A stretch of 64,000 bases of DNA from Larkinella terrae (GTDB lineage: Bacteria; Bacteroidota; Bacteroidia; Cytophagales; Spirosomataceae). The DNA is taken from positions 1 through 64,000 of the forward strand of contig NZ_WJXZ01000004.1 in NCBI RefSeq assembly GCF_009668025.1, written 5' to 3'. The notes below the pieces were generated by a model. That model was not told the DNA's origin, ran no database searches, and worked only from the letters and a program-made list of their open reading frames with translations. The translations under genes and the position numbers were made by a program. Below, piece by piece: positions 2,161-49,902 of the stretch; the stretch's first letter is position 1; each line of letters begins with the position of its first letter.

Positions 2161-3465
2161 ATGAAGTTTTACAGTACGAATAATCCTTCTGTCCGGGTTT
2201 CGATGGAAGAGGCTTTGCTCCGAAGTTTGCCCGCAGACCGGGGCCTGTATATGCCGGAAACGATCCCATTTATGGGCGTAGATTTCTTTAATTCCATTTC
2301 GGGCGGCTCGCTGTCGGATATCGGATTTCAGATCAGCTCGGCGCTTTTCAAGGATTCGATTCCATCCGATAAACTGGAAGAACTGGTTCATCACGCTTTT
2401 CCGTTCGATACGCCGGTTGTGACGCTGGAAGACGGAAAGACGCACGTTCTGGAGTTGTTTCACGGTCCATCGCTGGCTTTTAAGGACGTTGGTGCGCGCT
2501 ACATGGCGGCCATGATGGGCTATTTTCTGGAAAAATCGAACCGGGAAGTACACATTCTGGTAGCCACGTCCGGCGATACGGGCGGAGCCGTGGCGATGGG
2601 CTTTTTGGGCGTTCCCGGTATTAAAGTAACGATCCTGTATCCAAGCGGTCGCGTGAGTGAGCTACAGGAAAAACAGTTGACGACGCTCGGGCAGAACATT
2701 ACGGCCATTGAAGTAGATGGTTCGTTTGACGATTGTCAGGCGCTGGTCAAAACCGCTTTTACCGACAGCGAATTGAATCAGCAGTTTAGTTTGGCTTCGG
2801 CCAATTCAATCAATATTTTCCGGCTAATCCCGCAAAGTTTCTACTACGCCCGGGCCTACGGTCAGGTGAAGCATTTAGGAAAACCGGTGGTTTTTTCGAC
2901 GCCAAGCGGTAATTTCGGCAATCTGAGTGCCGGTGCGCTGGCTTATAAAATGGGATTGCCGGTTCAACAATTCATTGCGTCAACGAATCGGAACTACGTG
3001 GTCCCGAAGTACCTGGAAACCGGAATTTATGAACCGAAACCGTCGGTAGAAACCATTTCAAACGCAATGGACGTTGGCGCGCCGAGCAATTTCGTGCGAT
3101 TAACTCACCTGTTTGACGACAATTTTGAAGCGTTAAAGCAAATTCTGAGCGGTTATTATTTTGATGATGAACAAACCAAACAGGCGATGGCGGCTGTTTA
3201 TCAACAATTTGATTATGTCATGTGTCCGCACACGGCCGTTGGCTACTTAGGTTTGAAGAATTATCAACAATCCCACCCGGATGTGTGTGGAATATCACTC
3301 GCCACCGCGCATCCGGCGAAGTTCAAAGAACTCGTTGAGTCAGTTATCCACAAACCGGTGGAAATCCCGGCGGAGCTGGAAGAATTAATGAATCGTCCGA
3401 AACACAGTTTTAAGATGAAGGCCGACTTCACGGAATTCAAGGAATTCCTTCTGCAAACAGCCTGA
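2161..3465 (+). CDS. thrC: Threonine synthase
   Basis: This 434-residue PLP enzyme converts O-phospho-L-homoserine to threonine, the last step of threonine synthesis, in the cytosol. The PLP-binding lysine is Lys108 in HGPSLAFKDVGARYM. ATSGDTGGA and the C-terminal phosphate-binding TPSGNFGN are present, and the start MKFYSTNNPS is typical of family members. The gene stands alone: thrA and thrB are not adjacent. The 2003-2160 gap separates it from the divergent pruA; I could not find a clean TAnnTTTG box there (the nearest is TAACTTGC, 6 of 8). A strong bidirectional hairpin follows the stop. Confidence 0.96.
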   Translation: MKFYSTNNPSVRVSMEEALLRSLPADRGLYMPETIPFMGVDFFNSISGGSLSDIGFQISSALFKDSIPSDKLEELVHHAFPFDTPVVTLEDGKTHVLELFHGPSLAFKDVGARYMAAMMGYFLEKSNREVHILVATSGDTGGAVAMGFLGVPGIKVTILYPSGRVSELQEKQLTTLGQNITAIEVDGSFDDCQALVKTAFTDSELNQQFSLASANSINIFRLIPQSFYYARAYGQVKHLGKPVVFSTPSGNFGNLSAGALAYKMGLPVQQFIASTNRNYVVPKYLETGIYEPKPSVETISNAMDVGAPSNFVRLTHLFDDNFEALKQILSGYYFDDEQTKQAMAAVYQQFDYVMCPHTAVGYLGLKNYQQSHPDVCGISLATAHPAKFKELVESVIHKPVEIPAELEELMNRPKHSFKMKADFTEFKEFLLQTA

Positions 3466-3503: not shown

Positions 3504-5312
3504 TTAATTGATCGTATCTCCCCGCAAGGCCCTAAACCGCTTTCGGGCTTCTGCACCGAAAATACTGCCTGGGTATTTCTGCAAAAGCTGGTTGTAAAGC
3601 TCCATCGCCCTGGGCTTATCCTGTTTGTTTTCCTCGTACGTTTTTGCCGTCAGAAAAAGCGCATCATCGCCCAGCACATCTTCGCTGTATTTGGCTGAAA
3701 TCTGCTCCAAATCCTTCAAAGCTTCGTCAACCTTGTTTTGCTTAATGAGCGTGTTCGCCCGCAGCCACAAAATATTATCGGCCAGGCTGTGATCTTTGTA
3801 TTTGGCGTACATTTCGTAGAGCGCCAAAGCCGCCGAATCGACTTTATTCTGGAACAGCATTAACTCAATCGAAGCGAACTCCTTCATGGCGGTTTCGTTG
3901 CTGTCCGAATCCATACCGGTATTGTCCATAATGAGCAAACTGAGCGCCCCGGCATCGTTGGCAATTTCCCGACTAGTGGCCTGTTTCAGAATATCCAATA
4001 CCTCTTTCGACAGCTCAAATTCGCCTTTGTAATAGTGTAAACGGGCGTTCCGTAGTTTGGCTTCATAACCGAGCAATTCCTCTTTCTGCGATTTTTCAAC
4101 CTGCGAATACAACAAGGTTGCTTCCCAGGGCTCACCTTTCAAGAGATAAATATCGCCCATGTCCAGCTTACAGCGGTCGATAAACGCTTTTTCGTTTTTG
4201 CTGATTTCGGTGGCCAGTTGCAGAATCGTTATCGCCGTATCTTTTTCGTCCAGGTAAAAAGCGTACAGATTGGCCGTGCTGCGGAGTGCTTCCAGCGTGC
4301 GGTTATTCTTGCCCAGTTCCTGGAACATCTTCTGGTAATCGGCAATCAGCTTCCGGATTTCGGAATTATCCACCGGATAGGTGTTCTTTACCTGCTCTTC
4401 CCGCGCCTTGATGACGAGCCGCCGGGCGAATGCGTAGAGCTGTCCCTGTGGATATTCCTTCGCTACGTACTCAAACATGGCCGCTGCGTTCTTATAATCT
4501 TTATTCTGGAGTGCAACCGCACCCAGATCATAAACGCGTACACCGGTCAATTTTAAGCGTTTGTCGAGGGCCCGTTCCTGAATGAATGCTTTATAGAAGT
4601 CCTTCTTCTGCGTCAGATACCAAACCAGCATTTCGGTGTAAAACATCTCGTTCGGATTTTCCTGCACTTTCTTGTACAAAACCGTCTCGAGCATTTTCTG
4701 ATCGGCGTCTTTCAGATTGTCCTGCAACATGGCCTGCACGTTGTCCCGGTTACCCGGTATCAGTCCCCAATGCAGCAATTCGTCGATCATATTCTCCTTC
4801 TGGCCCACTGCGCCGTACAGACGCGCCAGTTCGCCGGCGTAGGCCAGCGGTTCCCGGCTTTGTTCCCGGCCTTTTTTCAGCACTTTAATGGCCCATGTAG
4901 CTTTGTGTTTTTCGGCAAAGTCCTGCGCCAGTTCAGGTAAGCCGTTTACATTGCTGCTGGCCACCGATATAGCCTTGTTAAAATAAACGTCCGCTTTAGC
5001 CGAGTCATTCCGGCTTTCTTCCAGAATACCGGCCTGCAGGAGTACATACGGATTTTTGTCGTCCGATTTTACCAGGCGCCGAATCACTTTTTCCGCATCC
5101 GCGATTTTGTTCAATTTTACCGCACTCTCCACATACTGACTCATGAGCTGTTTACTGGCTCCGGTTTTCATCAGTTTCTGATAGATCGTGTATGCTTTTT
5201 CAAATTCTCCTTTTTTGAAATATTCATCGGCCAGATCCGGACCTTCCTGGGCAAACCCACTAACCAAGCCGACTACCAGCAGCATAATCAGTACTCCTGC
5301 TATCTTCTTCAT
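3504..5312 (-). CDS. Exported tetratricopeptide-repeat protein
   Basis: The protein has 602 residues. It starts with a signal peptide (MKKIAGVLIMLLVVGLVSGFAQ), so it is secreted or periplasmic. The rest is alpha-helical and made of TPR-like units: repeated patterns such as ADEYFKKGEFEKAYTIYQKL near the N-terminus, ALQNKDYKNAAAMFEYVAKEYPQGQ in the middle and ELYNQLLQKYPGSIFGAEARKRFR at the C-terminus. Such proteins are scaffolds for protein-protein contacts; no catalytic domain is visible. Its promoter must lie in the adjoining DnaA-box region, so transcription of this gene leaves the putative origin leftward. The specific role is unknown. Confidence 0.85.
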   Translation of the reverse strand: MKKIAGVLIMLLVVGLVSGFAQEGPDLADEYFKKGEFEKAYTIYQKLMKTGASKQLMSQYVESAVKLNKIADAEKVIRRLVKSDDKNPYVLLQAGILEESRNDSAKADVYFNKAISVASSNVNGLPELAQDFAEKHKATWAIKVLKKGREQSREPLAYAGELARLYGAVGQKENMIDELLHWGLIPGNRDNVQAMLQDNLKDADQKMLETVLYKKVQENPNEMFYTEMLVWYLTQKKDFYKAFIQERALDKRLKLTGVRVYDLGAVALQNKDYKNAAAMFEYVAKEYPQGQLYAFARRLVIKAREEQVKNTYPVDNSEIRKLIADYQKMFQELGKNNRTLEALRSTANLYAFYLDEKDTAITILQLATEISKNEKAFIDRCKLDMGDIYLLKGEPWEATLLYSQVEKSQKEELLGYEAKLRNARLHYYKGEFELSKEVLDILKQATSREIANDAGALSLLIMDNTGMDSDSNETAMKEFASIELMLFQNKVDSAALALYEMYAKYKDHSLADNILWLRANTLIKQNKVDEALKDLEQISAKYSEDVLGDDALFLTAKTYEENKQDKPRAMELYNQLLQKYPGSIFGAEARKRFRALRGDTIN

Positions 5313-5339
5313 TTTTCTTTTTTATTAATTTAAAAAATA

Positions 5340-5740
5340 AAGGGTTTAAAAGGTTGTTGCCTGTGGATATGTGGACAAGTTCTTTTTGCACATTTGATTT
5401 TCAATACTGTGGATAAGTATTTTGAGTTATCCACAACCAAATTTTGTTTATCCACACATAACTAATTGAAAATCAATATAATTTTAATTTATCCACATTT
5501 GCAATCCGATAAAGTAAGGCTATTCAGACACATTTCCACAAGATACAATTTAAACATTTCCACGTGTTAATGAATGGTAGAATAAGTTGTGGAAAATAAT
5601 GGAGTTGTACACTATCCACACCTGACAATTTTCTTATCCACATGGGTATGCGGTTTGTCCACAGCAACTTTTGTTCCCTTTCACATTTTCTCCACACTAT
5701 CCACAGGGTTTTCCACTTACTTTTCCACTGATTATTTGTG
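5340..5740. other. oriC: Putative chromosomal replication origin (oriC)
   Basis: The 450-bp gene-free stretch 5313-5764 carries five exact DnaA boxes TTATCCACA: 5427-5435, 5448-5456, 5489-5497 and 5634-5642 on the plus strand and 5408-5416 on the minus strand. One-mismatch boxes lie at 5362-5370 and 5370-5378 (both minus), 5612-5620, 5655-5663, 5688-5696 and 5697-5705. AT-rich tracts at 5312-5350 and 5461-5490 could be the unwinding element. The gidA (mnmG) gene lies 2.6 kb away and a parS-like site 4.5 kb away, as at many bacterial origins. Box sequence and clustering are seen directly; origin function is inferred. Confidence 0.85.
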
Positions 5741-5764
5741 TTTTTTTAATTTCACATTGACCTT

Positions 5765-7372
5765 TCAAAAGGCGTCCAAATCTTCTGTTATGTCAAAGTT
5801 GGCTTTAATGGGTATGATGCCTTTGTTTCGGGTGAAGAAGTAGATAGGTTCGGGCAGGCGGTTTTCGGTCAGATCGCCACTGTCCCACCGTCCGTTTCCA
5901 TTTTCATCGATGATAACACGGAGCCGGTAGCGACCCGGTTTTATGTTAACGAATCGGTAGGTCAGGTTGTTTGATTGCTTATCGACGAGCTTGAAATTTT
6001 CATCCAATAATTCAATAATGAACTGCTTGGCTGTCGTGTTGATCTTCCCCGTTAGCACGCCGTACTTCTCGGGATCACGGATGAAGTAATTCAATTCCGC
6101 AGCCGTCGTCGAGTCGTTCAAGACACTAATAAATGCTCCTCTGCCCAACCGAAGTACGACGCTGTTTTTAGCCGTTGTTACTTTGGTTAGGATGAACCGG
6201 GTTTGGTTGTCTTCCCACCGATAGTCTTCAGGAGCCAGCGGGATGCGGTTGGTCGTGTCGCTGAAAAGCCGGAGCGAATCGGTGGTGATGTGTTTCATCG
6301 GTTTTGAAAATTGCAACACCACCTCCATCTTCCGGTCAACGTCGCCGTTGTCGGCGGGCTTGGCAGTGATCGTAACCGGCTCCAATGTTTCCCGGCGCGT
6401 AGGGGTTCGGAACTTGAATTTCTGGGTAAGCTCGGCTTTATTCTTCAACGAATCCGTCACTGTAATCTTTAATCGAACCGTATCCGTTGTCGCCCGTGAA
6501 TTAAAAAAAGTGAGTTCCGTCGGCGTTCTGAAATACGAGGGGAGGCTGTCCTGGGGATTTGTAAACTGTACTTTATAGCTTTCTATACCTCTGTCAAAGA
6601 CATATGTATACGTATTGACGAGCTGCTGCGTCCTCACGGAGCGTGGAGGAGTATTGTAAAACGAAAATAATTGCAATTTTATCGTGTCATTATTTGCTTT
6701 CAAATCAAGATCGCCCTTCAATAATGCCATTTTTTCGGTATTCGGATTTAGAATATAATTTAAATTTTTATCATCAAATGCGAAGATCTTATAGCGCCCA
6801 TCCTTCACATTTTCCAATAAGAACACACCGGAGGTATCGGTTCGCGTGAAATAGTATGGTTTTACTTTGGTCGGCGTCAGTGTGTCGTTCACGACGTATA
6901 AGCCGACCAGCGTGTTCAAAGTAGGCTGTCCGGTTTGAATGTCCGTCACCTTCCCTCCTACCCTAAGCGAGTCAATCGTGCTGCCGGTACTGAAAACCAG
7001 TTTGAGACTCAGGGCCGGGTTGTTCTCCGTAACGTCTTTTACGGCATCCGTGAAATTGAACGTATAAGTTGTATTCTCCTTGAACGGTTTATCGAAAACC
7101 AGGCGCAAGCTGGTGGGCTTTATCTTGGGTTTAAAAGGCGATTCCGGTTCGGGCGTGATAAGCACTTTCTGGTTGGCATTTTCAACCCGAATGTATTCGT
7201 TGAAAAAGAGCTCGATCGATTTTTCATTGAAATTCTTCTGTTTATTGATCGGCGTACTCTTCACCAAAACCGGTGCCAGCGTATCTTTTTTACCTCCGAT
7301 TGGTGCGGCATATTGCGAACACGAATTCAGAAAAACAGCAATGATGGCGAATAATGCGAGTGCTTGTTTCAT
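5765..7372 (-). CDS. Ig-like domain (Big_5/SbsA type) lipoprotein
   Basis: The product is a 535-residue lipoprotein with lipobox LNSC (Cys18) after a short hydrophobic signal. Residues about 30-130 (LAPVLVKSTP..., FNEYIRVENANQKVLITPEPE...) match the bacterial Ig-like fold seen at the start of many Bacteroidota surface proteins (Big_5 family). This is followed by a carboxypeptidase-regulatory-like stretch (GGKVTDIQTGQPTLNTLVGLY) and a second Ig-like unit around 330-420. The C-terminal region (VNIKPGRYRLRVIIDENGNGRWDSGD) resembles another beta-sandwich. It is probably anchored in the outer membrane. The gene ends against the putative origin and no enzymatic motif is visible. Confidence 0.85.
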   Translation of the reverse strand: MKQALALFAIIAVFLNSCSQYAAPIGGKKDTLAPVLVKSTPINKQKNFNEKSIELFFNEYIRVENANQKVLITPEPESPFKPKIKPTSLRLVFDKPFKENTTYTFNFTDAVKDVTENNPALSLKLVFSTGSTIDSLRVGGKVTDIQTGQPTLNTLVGLYVVNDTLTPTKVKPYYFTRTDTSGVFLLENVKDGRYKIFAFDDKNLNYILNPNTEKMALLKGDLDLKANNDTIKLQLFSFYNTPPRSVRTQQLVNTYTYVFDRGIESYKVQFTNPQDSLPSYFRTPTELTFFNSRATTDTVRLKITVTDSLKNKAELTQKFKFRTPTRRETLEPVTITAKPADNGDVDRKMEVVLQFSKPMKHITTDSLRLFSDTTNRIPLAPEDYRWEDNQTRFILTKVTTAKNSVVLRLGRGAFISVLNDSTTAAELNYFIRDPEKYGVLTGKINTTAKQFIIELLDENFKLVDKQSNNLTYRFVNIKPGRYRLRVIIDENGNGRWDSGDLTENRLPEPIYFFTRNKGIIPIKANFDITEDLDAF

Positions 7373-8321: not shown

Positions 8322-10184
8322 CTAGCGCCCTAAATAAATCATCAAAATGGAAATGTCTGAAGCACTGACACCGCTAATGCGCGATGCCTGGCCAATGGTT
8401 TGCGGTCGGATTCGCTTTAACTTTTCACGTCCTTCGAACGATAAAGCCGACAACCGGTCGAAGTCAAAATCCGGTCGGATCAGCAGCGTTTCGAGCTTTT
8501 CGGTTTTCTCAACCATCAGCCTTTCCTTCTCAATGTAGCTCTCATATTTTACCAGGATAACCGCTTCCTCGATGGTTTCTTCGTTGAACGCATGTAGGTA
8601 ATCAGCGACATTTTCGCTCAGGGAGATGAGTTCCTTGTGGTTAATTTCCGGGCGCCGTAGCAATGAATATGGCGAGGTTTTCTCCCGAATCTGCGCGCTG
8701 CCCAGTGAATCTAAAACCGTATTGATGGTCTCCGGCTGCACGCGCATCTGCTTCATCTCCTCCAGAATAGCCGCTACGTTTGCTTTTTTAGCCTGCATCA
8801 AATCATACCGCTCCTGCGTTGCCAGCCCGATTTCGTAGCCTTTTTCGGTTAATCGGAGGTCCGCATTATCCTGGCGGAGGATGGTTCGGTACTCCGCGCG
8901 GGACGTAAACATACGGTAAGGTTCCTCAGTGCCTTTCGTAATCAGGTCATCGATCAGCACACCAATGTACGCTTCCGAGCGTTTCAGGGTAAACTCTCCC
9001 AATTCCTTTGCCGAATTATGGGCGTTTATTCCGGCGATCAAACCCTGACAAGCGGCCTCTTCGTAGCCGGTTGTTCCGTTGATTTGACCGGCAAAAAATA
9101 GCCCGCCGATCAACTGGGTCTCCAGCGTTTGCTTCAATTGCGTCGGCGGAAAGTAGTCGTATTCCACCGCATAGCCCGGGCGAAACATCTTGGCATTTTC
9201 AAAACCGGGTATTTTCCGCAGGGCTTTGATCTGCACATCTTCTGGCAATGAGGTTGAAAAACCGTTCACATAAACCTCGACGGTGTCCCAGCCTTCCGGT
9301 TCTACAAAAATCTGGTGCCGGTCTTTGTCCGCGAAACGATTTATTTTATCCTCTACCGACGGGCAGTACCGGGGCCCCAAACCCTTGATACGGCCTGTAA
9401 ACATGGGTGAACGTTCAAAACCGGTTTTCAGAATTTCGTGAACTTCCGGGTTTGTGTAGGTAATCCAGCAGTGCCGTTGCTTGGTTAATGCCGGGGTGTT
9501 GAGGTAGGAAAACTTGCCGGGATTCTCATCACCGGGCTGTTCTTCCATTAAATTGTAGTTCAAACTTCGTCCATCCACCCGGGGCGGAGTACCGGTTTTC
9601 ATACGCCCGGATTCGAATCCGAGCTGTACCAACTGCTCGGTTAAACCGCTGGCTGAGCGCTCGGCGGTTCTGCCTCCTCCGAAAGTTTTTTCGCCAATGT
9701 AGATTTTTCCATTCAGGAAAGTTCCGTTTGTAAGTACAACGGAATCGGCCTGAATTTCCATCCCCATGCTGGTTTTCACGCCGGTTACCCGTTGGTTTTT
9801 TACCGTGATTTCGGTGACCATATCCTGCCAGAAATCCAGATTTGGTGTTTCTTCCAGCGTTTTGCGCCACTCAGCCGCGAACAACATCCGGTCACTTTGG
9901 CAACGCGGACTCCACATAGCCGGACCTTTTGACCGGTTGAGCATCCGAAACTGAATCATTGATTTATCGCTGATGATTCCGGATTGTCCACCGAGGGCGT
10001 CAATTTCCCGAACGATTTGCCCTTTGGCCACACCACCCATTGCCGGGTTGCACGACATTTGAGCAATAGTCTGCATGTTCATTGTAATCAGTAAAACTGA
10101 CGAGCCCATTGTGGCCGCAGCTGTAGCCGCTTCGCAACCGGCATGTCCCGCACCAACTACGATGACATCATACTTATTAAACAT
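8322..10184 (-). CDS. mnmG: tRNA uridine-5-carboxymethylaminomethyl modification enzyme MnmG (GidA)
   Basis: This 620-residue FAD protein works with MnmE to install the cmnm5 group on the wobble uridine of certain tRNAs. The dinucleotide-binding motif GAGHAGCE lies at residues 11-18. [13 protein letters not shown], the C-terminal GxxYxGYxxR-like region and the tail [15 protein letters not shown] fit the family. A longer frame is open upstream to 10313, but the extra 43 residues are hydrophobic and unlike the family, so I start at 10184 ([13 protein letters not shown]). The gene is a conserved neighbour of oriC in many bacteria. Its leader contains a parS-like site. Confidence 0.97.
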
Positions 10185-10366: not shown

Positions 10367-13300
10367 TTACTTTAACTTTTTGAGATACGAATCAACTTCG
10401 CGTTTGTAAAAAGGTGAAAAATCGGGCGGAACGGATCGCAACAATTCAACTTGTTTTTGCTTGTCCTTTACCAATTGTTCGTATTGTGGTGGCGGTTTTC
10501 GCATAACCGGTTTTGCCTGTTCCGCTTTCCGCTGCAAATCTTCTTCCTGCTCTTTAATGGCTTTTTCCGATTCCAGCAAGCGAATTAACATTTCCTGCTG
10601 GCGTTTAATAGTATTCTGGGTGACGCGTTTGTTGACAAGATCCGTTTCGGTCTCATCCATTTTATTCATGATGTCATTCATTTCACCACCCAATTTTTTG
10701 CCCAATTCAGTGCCTTTTTGAGCATCCTGAAGTTCTTTCAGCATCCGGCGCATCATAGCTTGCTCAGCCGCCAGTCGGGAAAGTTCTTCCGACATACCGC
10801 GTCCGCCTTTGCCGCCCTGCCCTTCTTTCATGAGTTTCTGCATGCGCTCGTTCAACTGCTTCTGCATCTCTCCCATCGACATAGCCTTGCCTTTCCCCTT
10901 CTTCTTACCCTTACTACCTTTGCCCGAAGCCGACATCTGACTCATCTGTTGCTCCTGCATTTGCTTGAACACATCGCTCAACATCAGGGCCAAATTATTG
11001 ATAGATGTCATGGCAAATTGCTGCTTCGATGTAGCAACATTTAATCGACGTTCGCGGATATATTTGACGCTCTCATCCATGTAACCCTTCATGTTGTTGA
11101 GCTCACGAGTCACAAACGTCTGAATCTGGAGCACCCGATTGGCCAGCGCATAAAGACTATCTTCGATAATTTTAGCGTCATCCTGCAGCTTCAATTGATC
11201 CTGAGCGAGCTTTACAAAACGCGGATCCTGCAACGAAACTGCCTTGAAATCTTTCATAACGCGTTCCTGATCGAATGAAAGTTGTATCAGATTTTCAAGA
11301 ATGTCACGCAGATCATCCATGTTTTCCTGCGACTCTTCCATCTCCGCCGACTGCATCTGCTGCTCCAGCTGCTCGCTCAACTTCTTCATTTGCTTGGCCG
11401 CATTCTTCTGGGATTTCGATGCTTTGTCGTTCTGTTTCTGATCCAGTTGCTTCTGGCTTTCCTGTTGCTCATTACTGATTTCCTGCTGAAGATCTTCGTG
11501 CGTATCCTGTTTTTCCGCATTCTTCATCTCCTCGGCCATCTTTTCAATATCCTTCAGATCTTCCCGAGTCTTTTCAAATTCCTTATTGAGTTCTTCCTGT
11601 TTTTTGCTCAACTCCGAATTCTCGTCCTTTTTGGCGTTATCGTCCTTTTTCGAATCGCCGTTTTGATCCTTCTTATCGCCATTTTCGTCCTTTTTGGACT
11701 GCTGATTTTCATCCTTTTTCGACTGAGCGTTCTCGTCTTTTTTCGACTTTGCATCTTCATCCTTTTTGGATTTGGCATCGTCTTTTTTCGGCTGCGCCTT
11801 ATCGTTCTTATCTTTTTGAGCTTCCAGCTTCTCGGTTTCGCTCGCTAATTTCTCCTGCTTTTCGGCCTGCTTTTCGAGGTCTTTGATGGCGTTTTCCATC
11901 TTCTGTTCCATCTGAAGTTGCTTGAAAAGCTCCAATGCCCGCTCCAATTCCTTCTCCAGATTTTTCTCTTTGTTCTTCAGCCGATCGAGCATATCGATCA
12001 TTTTGTCGTCCTGCTTCTGCTCCAGCATTTTTTTCAGTTCCTCGTAGAGCTTCTGCGTTTCGGGGTCCATCAGTTCATTCATGAGCTTTTGCAGCTGCTC
12101 GAATTTCTGAAGCATTTCCGGATTCTGATTATTAAACCGCTGCTGACGTTCGTTGCTGGTTTTGTTTTGCTCCTGCAGTTCTTTCAGTTCCTGCATCAAT
12201 TCCTCCCGCTTTTTCAGCAAGTCTTCTGCCTGTTTCTTATCCTGAAAATCCAGATTCTTTTTCGTCTGAAGGCGGTTTTCCAGCGTGTTCAGATTCTTTT
12301 TCAGTTGCTGGGCTTTCGTCAGCGTTTTACTAATCTGGTTCTCAGTTTGCTGAGAGGAGCGTTCAGCCTCTTCGGCCAGCTTGGCCTGATCGGGAACGGC
12401 AAACTGAGCAAAGGTGGAACGAGCGCTTTTGTAGCCGTTAATCACGTCGTTGTCCCAAACCTGAACGAAGTATTCCAGCCGGTCGCCGGGCTGCATTTTC
12501 AGGCTGTCGAGGCCCCACTGATAATAAAAATTCTGCGTAGCCGCCGACCGGTTGAACGGAATGGCGCGGGTTAAGAATTTATCGGGAGCGTTCTGACCCG
12601 CCCGAATCACTTTGTACTGGACTTTCAAATTGGAAAAACCGTAGTCGTCGGTGATGGTCCCACCCAGCATTACATAGTTGTAGAACGTCGTGTCCTTGAA
12701 GTTTTCCAGTGAAACCTGCGGGAATTTGTCGTTAACGACATTCAGCGTATACTGAATATTATCGCGGCTGGCGGCCACTTTATTCTTCAGCGAAACCGAA
12801 TACGTCGATGATTTTTTCACGACACGCGAAAATTCGAACTCGTCCGACGATTGTTTATCGGCGATCAAACCGCGCGGGTCGCCCGCAAACCGGATCAAAA
12901 CCGAATCCGTATTGGCGGCCGAAAACCGCCAGGTGACTTGCGTGCCTTCCGGCACCAGCAAGTTGCCAACGTTCGAAAGTTGCTCAGACGGTTTATTCAA
13001 ATACCCCGGATAAACCAGGCTAACGTCAAAAGAGAGTAGGCCCGGGCGATCCAGAACGACTAACTCATAACCCGGTGAAGCAAACCCGACGGATTCAAAC
13101 CGAAACGGAATGTTCCGCTGAACATTGTCAAATGTGTAGGAAAAATGCCCCTTACCGTCGTTGTTGAGCTTAAAGCGCGTCTGATTGGAAACCAGGTAAA
13201 CATCCTGCGGCAGTGTATTTCCTTTCAGTTCGAGTTCCAGCGTATAGTCCTCGTTCCGGAAGGCTTTGAGATTCTTATTCCGCAATTGAAACTGAAACGG

Positions 13301-13888
13301 CGCTTCTTCCGCAAACTCCTGATCGTAACTGATGATGCGTTTCGAGGTGCTGGTCAGAAATGCCGGATACAGCAACAGCAAACCGCCAATAATAAACGCC
13401 GGGATGATGGCGTATTTCACAAACCGGCGGTTCTGATTGATTTGAATGGCATCGGCAAACCGCACAATCAGCAATTGTTTAGACCGCTGGTTAATGCTGG
13501 CTTCGAGCAGGTCGCTCTGCTGGCGGGTCAGGGCGCGGAGTTGCAGCGTGTTCAGCAGCTTATCCCCTACTTCCGGGAAAAACCGCCCGATCTGTTGCGC
13601 GGCTTCTTCGTTGGTCAGCGATTTTCCAATGCCGTACAAATGCACCAGCGGGTTGATCACCCAGTAGTACAGCGCCGTCAGCATAACCGCTAAGGAACCA
13701 AAGAACAGAATGCCTCGGACGGGTGAACTAAACCGGCCGAAAAATTCAGCCGTGTTCATCAGCAAATAGACCGATAACGAAAAAGCAATGAAAAAAATGG
13801 CGCCTTTGGCAACCTGATTGATATAAAATTTCTTTCGGTATTCTTCAATACGCAGCAGCAGCGTTTGAATTGAGTCTTGCATCTGCAT
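10367..13888 (-). CDS. DUF4175 family membrane-anchored coiled-coil protein
   Basis: This 1173-residue protein has two N-terminal membrane segments (about 27-45 and 59-80) and a third near 155-175. An extracytoplasmic beta-rich region follows (about 190-500), then some 650 residues of highly charged coiled coil. Homologues in Bacteroidota are annotated DUF4175; their biochemical role is not known to me. Residues about 700-760 hold a lysine/aspartate/glutamate repeat based on SKKDEN. A glycine-rich GKGSKGKKKGKGK segment near 958-970 and a K/M-rich stretch follow. The start could also be the second Met (13882). The gene stands upstream of mnmG but is separated from it by a terminator. Confidence 0.8.
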   Translation of the reverse strand: MQMQDSIQTLLLRIEEYRKKFYINQVAKGAIFFIAFSLSVYLLMNTAEFFGRFSSPVRGILFFGSLAVMLTALYYWVINPLVHLYGIGKSLTNEEAAQQIGRFFPEVGDKLLNTLQLRALTRQQSDLLEASINQRSKQLLIVRFADAIQINQNRRFVKYAIIPAFIIGGLLLLYPAFLTSTSKRIISYDQEFAEEAPFQFQLRNKNLKAFRNEDYTLELELKGNTLPQDVYLVSNQTRFKLNNDGKGHFSYTFDNVQRNIPFRFESVGFASPGYELVVLDRPGLLSFDVSLVYPGYLNKPSEQLSNVGNLLVPEGTQVTWRFSAANTDSVLIRFAGDPRGLIADKQSSDEFEFSRVVKKSSTYSVSLKNKVAASRDNIQYTLNVVNDKFPQVSLENFKDTTFYNYVMLGGTITDDYGFSNLKVQYKVIRAGQNAPDKFLTRAIPFNRSAATQNFYYQWGLDSLKMQPGDRLEYFVQVWDNDVINGYKSARSTFAQFAVPDQAKLAEEAERSSQQTENQISKTLTKAQQLKKNLNTLENRLQTKKNLDFQDKKQAEDLLKKREELMQELKELQEQNKTSNERQQRFNNQNPEMLQKFEQLQKLMNELMDPETQKLYEELKKMLEQKQDDKMIDMLDRLKNKEKNLEKELERALELFKQLQMEQKMENAIKDLEKQAEKQEKLASETEKLEAQKDKNDKAQPKKDDAKSKKDEDAKSKKDENAQSKKDENQQSKKDENGDKKDQNGDSKKDDNAKKDENSELSKKQEELNKEFEKTREDLKDIEKMAEEMKNAEKQDTHEDLQQEISNEQQESQKQLDQKQNDKASKSQKNAAKQMKKLSEQLEQQMQSAEMEESQENMDDLRDILENLIQLSFDQERVMKDFKAVSLQDPRFVKLAQDQLKLQDDAKIIEDSLYALANRVLQIQTFVTRELNNMKGYMDESVKYIRERRLNVATSKQQFAMTSINNLALMLSDVFKQMQEQQMSQMSASGKGSKGKKKGKGKAMSMGEMQKQLNERMQKLMKEGQGGKGGRGMSEELSRLAAEQAMMRRMLKELQDAQKGTELGKKLGGEMNDIMNKMDETETDLVNKRVTQNTIKRQQEMLIRLLESEKAIKEQEEDLQRKAEQAKPVMRKPPPQYEQLVKDKQKQVELLRSVPPDFSPFYKREVDSYLKKLK
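11632..11793 (-). repeat. In-frame short tandem repeat coding for (S)KKDEN units
   Basis: Within the DUF4175 gene about seven imperfect units of roughly 24 nt encode variants of Q-SKKDEN/A-KSKKDED. The units differ by substitutions and by one or two missing codons, so the array may vary in length between strains. The encoded stretch is a charged, probably unstructured linker between coiled-coil blocks. Confidence 0.7.
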
Positions 13889-22872: not shown

Positions 22873-22974
22873 AAGGATTCAGAGCGTAAGGTTCTGATTT
22901 TGTAAAACTTACTAAAACATTTTAACCACAACAGATAGGTCGGCCCCTTGCCTATTGTAAACTTTTCATGTCCT

Positions 22975-48237: not shown

Positions 48238-49902
48238 ATGCAAAAATTACAAACGCTCGACTACGCTGTTTTCTTTATTTATTTCATCATCGTAGCGTCT
48301 TACGGCTACTGGATTTACCAACGAAAGAAGACGAAAGAAACCTCTTCCACTGATTTTTTTCTCGCCGAGGGTTCCCTAACCTGGTGGGCCATCGGATCGT
48401 CCCTAATTGCGTCCAACATTTCGGCTGAACAGTTCATTGGCGCTTCCGGCGACGGTTTTGCGATGGGGCTGGCCATCGCGACGTACGAGTGGATGGCAGC
48501 CGCAACACTCATTGTTGTGGCCGTATTTTTTATGCCCATTTACCTCAAAAACCGGATTTTCACCATGCCCCAGTTTTTGACCAAGCGGTATAACAATACC
48601 GTAGCGATGATCATGGCCATTTTCTGGCTTTTTCTCTACATCCTGGTCAATCTGACGTCGATTCTGTTTCTGGGCGCGCTGGCGGTTTCAACCATTTCGG
48701 GGCTAAACTTTACGTTATGCATGTTTGGGCTGGCGGTTTTTGCGGTTATTATTACGCTGGGCGGCATGAAGGTAATTGGCTATACGGACGTAATTCAGGT
48801 GTTTTTTCTGATTCTGGGCGGGCTTGCCACGACCTATCTGGCGATTAATCTGGTGTCGTCGGAAAATGGCACAACCGGCATTCTCAATGGTTTCAATCAC
48901 ATGCTGGCCAAGTCGGAAGACCACTTTCACATGATCTTCCCGAAAGGCCATCCGCATTATGCTTCGCTGCCCGGTCTGACGGTCCTGATTGGCGGTATGT
49001 GGATCGTAAACCTGAATTATTGGGGTTGTAATCAGTACATTACGCAACGGGCCTTGGGGGCCGATTTGAAAACCGCCCGTGAGGGAATTCTTTTTGCGGC
49101 CTTTCTCAAGTTGCTCATGCCCATTATTGTGGTGCTGCCCGGTATTGCCGCCTATACGTTATACCAGCAAGGGCTGTTTCAGCAGGAAATGCTGGACGCG
49201 ACGGGAGAAGTCAATAAAGACCACGCCTATCCGGTTTTGCTGAACCTGTTGCCGGCCGGTCTGAAAGGACTTTCGTTTGCCGCGCTGACGGCTGCGGTCG
49301 TGGCGTCCCTGGCGGGAAAAGCCAACTCAATTTCAACGATCTTTACGCTCGATATTTTCAAGAAATACATTTCGCCGAACGCCAGCGAACAGAAGCTGGT
49401 GCGGGTGGGCCGGATCGCCATCTGGGTATCGATGCTGATGGCCATTTTCATTTCGCCGTTCATGGGAATCGACAAAAAAGGCGGTTTTCAGTTTATCCAG
49501 GAAATGACCGGTTTGGTTTCGCCGGGCGTTTTTGCCGCCTTTATCATGGGCTTCTTCTGGAAAAAAACCAACTCGTCCGGTGCTTTATTCGCGATTGTGG
49601 GCGGATTTCTGTTATCCCTGTTTTTCAAATACATGCTGCCCGGTATGGTTAATCTGGAATTTCTGGCGCCGGTTGGTTTCGCCGTACCGAATCCGGATGG
49701 CATCTACACGATTCCATTTCTGGACACCATGGGCTTTGTATTCCTGATCTGTGTAGCGGTAATGATCGTTCTCGGCCTGCAAAAGCCAAGTGACAAAGGG
49801 CTTGAAATCGACAGCACCATGTTCAAAACGTCGTCGAACTTCGCCATCGGAGCCGTCATCGTTCTGGCGATTATCACGTTCTTGTACGCGTACTTCTGGT
49901 AA
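48238..49902 (+). CDS. Sodium/sugar symporter (SSS family)
   Basis: The inner-membrane protein of 554 residues has about 14 hydrophobic helices of the sodium:solute symporter family. The signature region NISAEQFIGASGDGFAMGLAIATYEW lies in helix 2 and its flank. GGMKVIGYTDVIQVFFLILGG is the family core, and KANSISTIFTLDIFKKYI (near 361-378) carries Ser/Thr residues of the kind that bind sodium. It is closest in look to the SGLT-type sugar transporters. The exact sugar is not readable. It ends 90 bp before the convergent cutC stop, across a long palindrome. Confidence 0.9.
   Translation: MQKLQTLDYAVFFIYFIIVASYGYWIYQRKKTKETSSTDFFLAEGSLTWWAIGSSLIASNISAEQFIGASGDGFAMGLAIATYEWMAAATLIVVAVFFMPIYLKNRIFTMPQFLTKRYNNTVAMIMAIFWLFLYILVNLTSILFLGALAVSTISGLNFTLCMFGLAVFAVIITLGGMKVIGYTDVIQVFFLILGGLATTYLAINLVSSENGTTGILNGFNHMLAKSEDHFHMIFPKGHPHYASLPGLTVLIGGMWIVNLNYWGCNQYITQRALGADLKTAREGILFAAFLKLLMPIIVVLPGIAAYTLYQQGLFQQEMLDATGEVNKDHAYPVLLNLLPAGLKGLSFAALTAAVVASLAGKANSISTIFTLDIFKKYISPNASEQKLVRVGRIAIWVSMLMAIFISPFMGIDKKGGFQFIQEMTGLVSPGVFAAFIMGFFWKKTNSSGALFAIVGGFLLSLFFKYMLPGMVNLEFLAPVGFAVPNPDGIYTIPFLDTMGFVFLICVAVMIVLGLQKPSDKGLEIDSTMFKTSSNFAIGAVIVLAIITFLYAYFW

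Follow-up and report, generated by a model that had tools for sequence, protein, structure and literature searches.

In Escherichia coli, dnaA lies apart from the chromosomal replication origin, oriC. The genes around that origin are arranged as mioC-oriC-gidA (PMC10225481), and the Ori-Finder paper places gidA among the genes beside origins (PMC2275245). In the Bacteroidetes, oriC is commonly found far from dnaA, as stated with reference to DoriC in PMC4755523. The oriC of Prevotella intermedia OMA14 described in the same paper belongs to another class of the phylum than Larkinella and resembles the locus studied here, being a DnaA-box locus at a skew transition with dnaA not nearby. Among the Flavobacteriaceae, oriC has been placed at mnmG, a neighbour that it would share with our locus, in Mariniflexile litorale (PMC11278836) and Algorimicrobium (PMC12843772), in both cases as predictions only. 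The former paper reports that dnaA had been assigned as the origin of Mariniflexile but that the skew did not fit, and one of its figure legends swaps ter and oriC relative to the text. The exact neighbourhood nevertheless differs, because the one flavobacterial relative whose TPR gene was examined (L040, Winogradskyella) has no box cluster beside that gene. Cytophaga hutchinsonii is a member of the Cytophagales. Its oriC is listed in a plasmid table (PMC5288383), and the likeness consists in an oriC fragment carried on plasmids used in a Cytophagales bacterium. No literature on a Larkinella replication origin was found among open-licence papers, a search that did not extend to DoriC, which perhaps holds predictions for the family. 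For Spirosoma, PMC11354047 names oriC only in a gene list, and none of the matches listed for oriC or DnaA boxes in Cytophagales named this order.

The window analysed here is a stretch of 64 kb at the start of one contig (G000:C17:1-64000) of the 7.85-Mb genome of Larkinella terrae, which is assembled in 22 contigs. Within it, an intergenic region flanked by two genes that both read leftwards is very probably the chromosomal replication origin of this bacterium, both replication from this region and the binding of DnaA being predictions from sequence. This view is based on a dense and conserved array of DnaA boxes, easily melted stretches beside and within it, a conserved gene neighbourhood and a GC skew switch in two complete relatives. 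The locus resembles oriC of E. coli in its TTATCCACA boxes and in the vicinity of gidA (mnmG). Unlike in E. coli, two genes and 2.6 kb separate the boxes from mnmG, and the other flank is made up of a TPR gene, thrC and an rRNA gene. The features of the locus are listed in Table 1.

Table 1. Features of the proposed origin and its surroundings, in window coordinates.
Feature	Position	Strand	Basis or remark
16S rRNA gene start, at contig end	1..123	-	RF00177
Three boxes, one exact (3344) and two TTATCAACA (3198, 3261)	3198..3352	+	Inside the end of thrC, beyond the TPR gene
TPR-repeat protein gene, constant neighbour of the cluster	3504..5312	-	Pfam TPR, orthologues
AT-rich, easily melted stretch, candidate unwinding element	5300..5359		Beside the overlapping box pair; includes the TPR start codon
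Proposed oriC, intergenic region of 452 bp	5313..5764		AT 0.686; 12 boxes at up to one mismatch; aligned in 10 genomes
DnaA-box cluster	5362..5705		5 exact and 7 one-mismatch boxes
Overlapping box pair TTGTCCACA/ATATCCACA	5362..5378	-	Alignment columns 591-608
AT-rich, easily melted stretch, candidate unwinding element	5439..5498		Inside the cluster
Outer end, candidate unwinding module with DnaA-trio-like triplets	5697..5764	+	Alignment, triplet search
Ig-like (Big_5) domain protein gene, other flank	5765..7372	-	Pfam
mnmG (gidA)	8322..10184	-	PF01134, E 4.3e-167

The first-pass annotation had marked five exact DnaA boxes and at least six one-mismatch boxes within about 350 bp of non-coding, AT-rich DNA. 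All five exact copies were located, at 5408(-), 5427(+), 5448(+), 5489(+) and 5634(+), and the one-mismatch boxes proved to be seven, at 5362(-), 5370(-), 5588(-), 5612(+), 5655(+), 5688(+) and 5697(+). The twelve boxes span 344 bp and all lie inside the intergenic region, which is indeed rich in AT. This number far exceeds the expectation for the region, since 500 dinucleotide shuffles of its own sequence yielded on average 0.32 boxes at up to one mismatch, and never more than 3. In the whole window, 7 exact boxes were found against a mean of 0.30 in 100 shuffles. The genome as a whole contains 54 exact boxes, for which the number of groups of five within 235 bp expected by chance is about 1.5e-11. 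Similar clusters at many other loci, which the annotation had named as a finding that would speak against an origin, did not appear: when exact boxes only are counted, the cluster is the only group of more than two in the genome. The relatives do have further groups of three or four exact boxes, outside the main cluster.

The neighbourhood of the cluster was also as the annotation had described it. The gene 2.6 kb to the right is gidA (mnmG) according to its Pfam match, and the 16S rRNA gene, of which the start is present on the minus strand, is transcribed away from the cluster. The order aldehyde dehydrogenase, thrC, TPR gene, cluster, Big_5 gene, methyltransferase gene and mnmG is the same at all seven named Larkinella loci, four of which also have the 16S rRNA gene at the end of the locus. 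The nearest named relatives of the window's TPR protein are its orthologues at seven Larkinella loci (83-97% identity), which places the host in or very near this genus, and the exact box on the far side of the TPR gene recurs in eight of eight relatives from the genus. Beyond mnmG, positions 10367-13888 encode a protein of 1173 residues with a match to DUF4175 and a long, charged middle part rich in Lys and Glu. Further to the right, a TPP riboswitch (RF00059, 22784-22881) is located upstream of an ORF starting at 22948, which by eye resembles a gene for a TonB-dependent receptor and suggests thiamin-related uptake.

The distribution of the genome over 22 contigs means that its replicons are not directly separable, and the cluster might on that account be the origin of a plasmid, a chromid or another inserted replicon. 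We regard this as hardly conceivable, because the window contains the start of a 16S rRNA gene, mnmG, mfd and thrC, because the orthologous locus is found on single contigs of 6.56 Mb (G001) and 7.03 Mb (G012) in two relatives, and because none of the ten flanking proteins tested matched a replication initiator.

We compared the TPR loci of 29 relatives (L003-L031), of which 28 were assessable, L030 being cut by a contig end. These 28 comprise 27 loci from the same family and one (L027) from another family. A cluster of at least four boxes with up to one mismatch within 400 bp was present upstream of the TPR gene at 27 of the 28 loci, the exception having three boxes; L031 has eight boxes in 400 bp. 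In several relatives, for example G011, all boxes of the cluster carry one mismatch. Among 20 further TPR loci, six reached four boxes per 400 bp (two of three from the same family and four of 17 from other families) and four had no box at all; outside the family, fewer than four boxes in 400 bp were thus found at 13 of 17 loci. A few orthologous loci, such as those of G015, G020, G048 and G054, are not part of these sets. The near-constant presence in the family set and the sparse hits beyond it indicate that the arrangement is a family trait with a patchy occurrence outside.

The gene for DnaA itself is located elsewhere. As the annotation had said, the window lacks dnaA; the genome has a single Bac_DnaA match, at G000:C6:673706-674191 on another contig. 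The proposed origin is not next to dnaA in the relatives either, and it does not correspond to a dnaA-linked oriC, as the distance between dnaA and the cluster is 1.6 Mb in G001 and about 1.3 Mb in G012. In both genomes dnaA has a position in the middle of a replichore (3.61 Mb in G001, 0.92 Mb in G012). At 17 DnaA-domain loci from 16 genomes, including that of the window and a second, weak match in G033 (L056), no more than two boxes with up to one mismatch were present in about 2.5-3.5 kb. Since none of these loci has a box cluster, dnaA was rejected as a marker of the origin. In some assemblies it is found near the start, at base ~560 of the main contig in G009 and at base ~520 in G028.

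The annotation had also predicted that the minimum of the cumulative GC skew falls at the cluster. On the scale of the chromosome this was borne out in two of four complete relatives. For G001, a member of the same genus with a single 6.56-Mb contig, 20 sampled stretches of 20 kb split cleanly into two arms: the skew was negative in all 11 stretches from 5.249 Mb through 0 to 1.989 Mb and positive in all nine from 2.297 to 4.941 Mb. The switch from minus to plus between 1.989 and 2.297 Mb brackets the orthologous cluster at 2.042 Mb, and the opposite switch (4.94-5.25 Mb) lies roughly half a chromosome away. For G012, which belongs to another genus (7.03 Mb), all 10 stretches from 6.669 Mb through 0 to 2.828 Mb were positive and eight of 10 from 3.159 to 6.338 Mb were negative, the switch between 6.338 and 6.669 Mb again bracketing the cluster, at 6.624 Mb. 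The evidence from G028 is weak, because its sampled cumulative minimum is near the TPR gene but single stretches scatter; its boxes are one-mismatch only. G045, from another family, does not agree with the prediction: its sampled skew minimum is not at the TPR gene, and this gene has no box cluster. The skew of both G028 and G045 is noisy and not decisive. In the genome under study the test was partial, as the contig starts 5.4 kb from the cluster; on this contig, 15 of the 20 stretches sampled beyond 64 kb were positive, as the right arm should be. Altogether, the skew in relatives, the conservation in the family and the location of dnaA at a place without a box cluster support the initial view of the cluster as a candidate chromosomal origin.

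The part of the prediction that did not hold concerns the finer scale, where the minimum is offset. The cumulative minimum of G001 is at ~2.016 Mb. It is displaced from the cluster towards mnmG by about 26 kb, which corresponds to 0.4% of the chromosome; the trough is flat from ~2.004 to 2.028 Mb, that is, 14-38 kb from the cluster. Likewise, a sliding profile of the window has its lowest cumulative value at ~30 kb, with very little change between 20 and 53 kb. Nearly all genes between 5765 and 22617 are on the minus strand and read towards the cluster; with replication starting there (~5.5 kb), they would be lagging-strand genes. The skew at fourfold sites of the minus-strand genes between 5.7 and 30 kb was -0.15 to -0.19 (errors 0.04-0.05), more like that of the other replichore. 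This offset could stem from a local inversion, or the origin may have shifted recently.

These data raise the possibility that the skew minimum, 14-38 kb to the right, marks the true origin and that the cluster itself is an origin-near site that titrates or controls DnaA. Besides the local minimum, the switch of gene strand at this position in both G001 and the window would fit such a location, and so would further box groups in two relatives. In G001, a second cluster, made up of four exact boxes within 110 bp (G001:C1:2010135-2010244; L085:6135-6244), lies at 2.010 Mb inside the skew trough and has as many exact boxes as the main cluster of this genome, so that the uniqueness of the main cluster is less clear in relatives; in G033, three exact boxes occur together at 2.758 Mb, separated from the main cluster by 28 kb in the direction upstream of the TPR gene. 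The second cluster of G001 is positioned just upstream of a gene that matches the window ORF at 48238-49902 with 70.7% identity over 1.16 kb. By eye, the product resembles a sodium:solute symporter. A counterpart of the second cluster is, however, absent from the window, which between 5.7 and 64 kb contains neither an exact box nor a cluster of one-mismatch boxes. Moreover, the synteny between the window and G001 stops at ~29.8 kb and the second cluster is not common to both, the main cluster is the one that is conserved across the family, and the offset is small, amounting to 0.2-0.6% of the chromosome. We therefore consider an origin to the right of the cluster unlikely.

Within the proposed origin, next to the TPR gene and 50 bp from its start codon, an overlapping box pair is found, of which TTRTCCACATATCCACAG is unchanged in all ten aligned genomes. 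AT-rich unwinding elements adjoining the boxes are represented by two candidates: 5439-5498 and 5300-5359 rank as the third and fourth least stable non-overlapping 60-bp stretches in the window. At the other end, beside the Big_5 gene, the sequence is nearly constant in the ten-genome alignment and consists, on the box strand, of a T-rich tract and then ATTGACCTTT; the complete order is an outward-facing box, two weaker TTTTCCACT copies, the T-rich tract and the conserved ATTGACCTTT. The same tail of T-rich tract and ATTGACCTTT is present in several relatives from outside the genus and absent from several, as read from box pairs listed at up to three mismatches per box and without a control. 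The basal unwinding system has been outlined as a tandem box pair, a spacer and a trio tract (PMC8287927). When the published rule for trios was applied in simplified form with a threshold of at least four triplets, three boxes with trio-like triplets were found, which is not above the shuffles (mean 0.74, maximum 5). Outward box pairs spaced by 12 or 13 bp were present at 14 of the 28 assessable loci, whereas 500 random placements gave 3.3 on average and no more than 11; the window itself has no such pair at up to one mismatch per box.

The proximity of the constant overlapping pair to the TPR start codon, together with the fact that the cluster ends at the start of this gene, might also be taken to mean that the cluster is a locus for DnaA titration or regulation, comparable to datA or DARS, or a DnaA-controlled promoter of the TPR gene. 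Against such a role of the cluster stand the chromosome-wide skew switch that brackets it in two complete relatives, the lack of a cluster at dnaA that could act as origin instead, and the absence of any larger group of exact boxes from the genome. Whereas loci of the datA or DARS type are located away from the origin, the cluster is ~26 kb from the skew minimum of G001 and inside the switch interval of G012. A regulatory locus in place of an origin is thus very unlikely. If the region is the origin, DnaA, encoded elsewhere on the chromosome, would occupy the boxes, which in the relatives are mostly oriented away from the TPR gene. Bound DnaA would then melt a neighbouring AT-rich stretch, for which 5697-5764, 5300-5359 and 5439-5498 are candidates. 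The helicase would subsequently be loaded, and two forks would set out, one in the direction of the rRNA gene and the other in that of mnmG.

DnaA boxes are not confined to the intergenic region in the relatives. A set of 30 TPR coding sequences, including the window's own gene, contained 26 exact boxes, distributed over 16 of the 30 sequences, whereas 2.8 were expected and at most 9 were seen in 200 shuffles in which codons were exchanged synonymously within each gene. At up to one mismatch, 70 boxes were counted against 29.9 expected (maximum 45). These counts are inflated by shared ancestry, as boxes at match nucleotides 1107-1131 recur in 11 loci. None of the 26 exact boxes is in the TPR genes of the window and its eight genus relatives, and the excess is consequently not a feature of Larkinella. 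The extreme case is G009, where a stretch of 5 kb comprising the TPR gene and its surroundings (G009:C6:3737446-3742425) contains 16 exact boxes.

At larger distances from the cluster, box density is also raised in total, but unevenly among genomes. In G009, 31 of 65 merged sites lie within 500 kb of it (11.9 expected), and in five genomes taken together this applies to 82 of 259 merged sites (41.7 expected), an approximately twofold and uneven excess that comes mostly from G009 and G011. For the reversed pattern, the same five genomes gave 20 of 174 (28.5 expected). These counts leave out 5 kb on either side of the cluster as well as G028, and use the main contig only for G009 and G011. In a comparison of the excess with 2000 random centres, the values out of 2000 were 40 for G011, 194 for G009, 313 for G001, 402 for G033 and 773 for G012; only G011 stands out clearly, G009, G001 and G033 do so less, and G012 does not. 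An accumulation of boxes near the origin has been reported for E. coli (PMC12371093). An inverted pair of exact boxes, six bases apart, occurs in four genomes (G000:C14:57878-57901, G033:C1:2600657-2600680, G001:C1:2330477-2330500 and G009:C6:3977974-3977997), in three of them at 185-290 kb from the main cluster, and perhaps represents a conserved DnaA-controlled site.

It is possible, and we suggest this tentatively, that the origin of the Spirosomataceae is not one intergenic array but a multi-kilobase territory of DnaA boxes over and around the TPR gene that acts as a graded sink for DnaA. The territory would include boxes inside the TPR gene in most other genera, boxes in thrC beyond its far end in Larkinella, and satellites at tens to hundreds of kilobases, with G009 as the extreme. 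The lack of exact boxes in Larkinella's own TPR genes makes this slightly less probable. A graded DnaA sink around the origin has been proposed for E. coli, and no such report was found for the Bacteroidetes. DnaA titration outside E. coli could be tested with the boxes that other genera have in their TPR genes.

As origins far from dnaA or near mnmG have already been reported for Bacteroidetes, the Larkinella locus is well conserved but fairly ordinary. The less expected results, namely that boxes extend into the TPR gene in other genera and that the skew is offset, are worth a second look. The proposed oriC, with the TPR gene, the Big_5 gene and mnmG as its constant neighbours, would provide a specific origin for a family with some assemblies that start at dnaA. 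An origin located far from dnaA affects replichore maps, growth-rate estimates based on read coverage, and decisions on which fragments to use in replicating plasmids.
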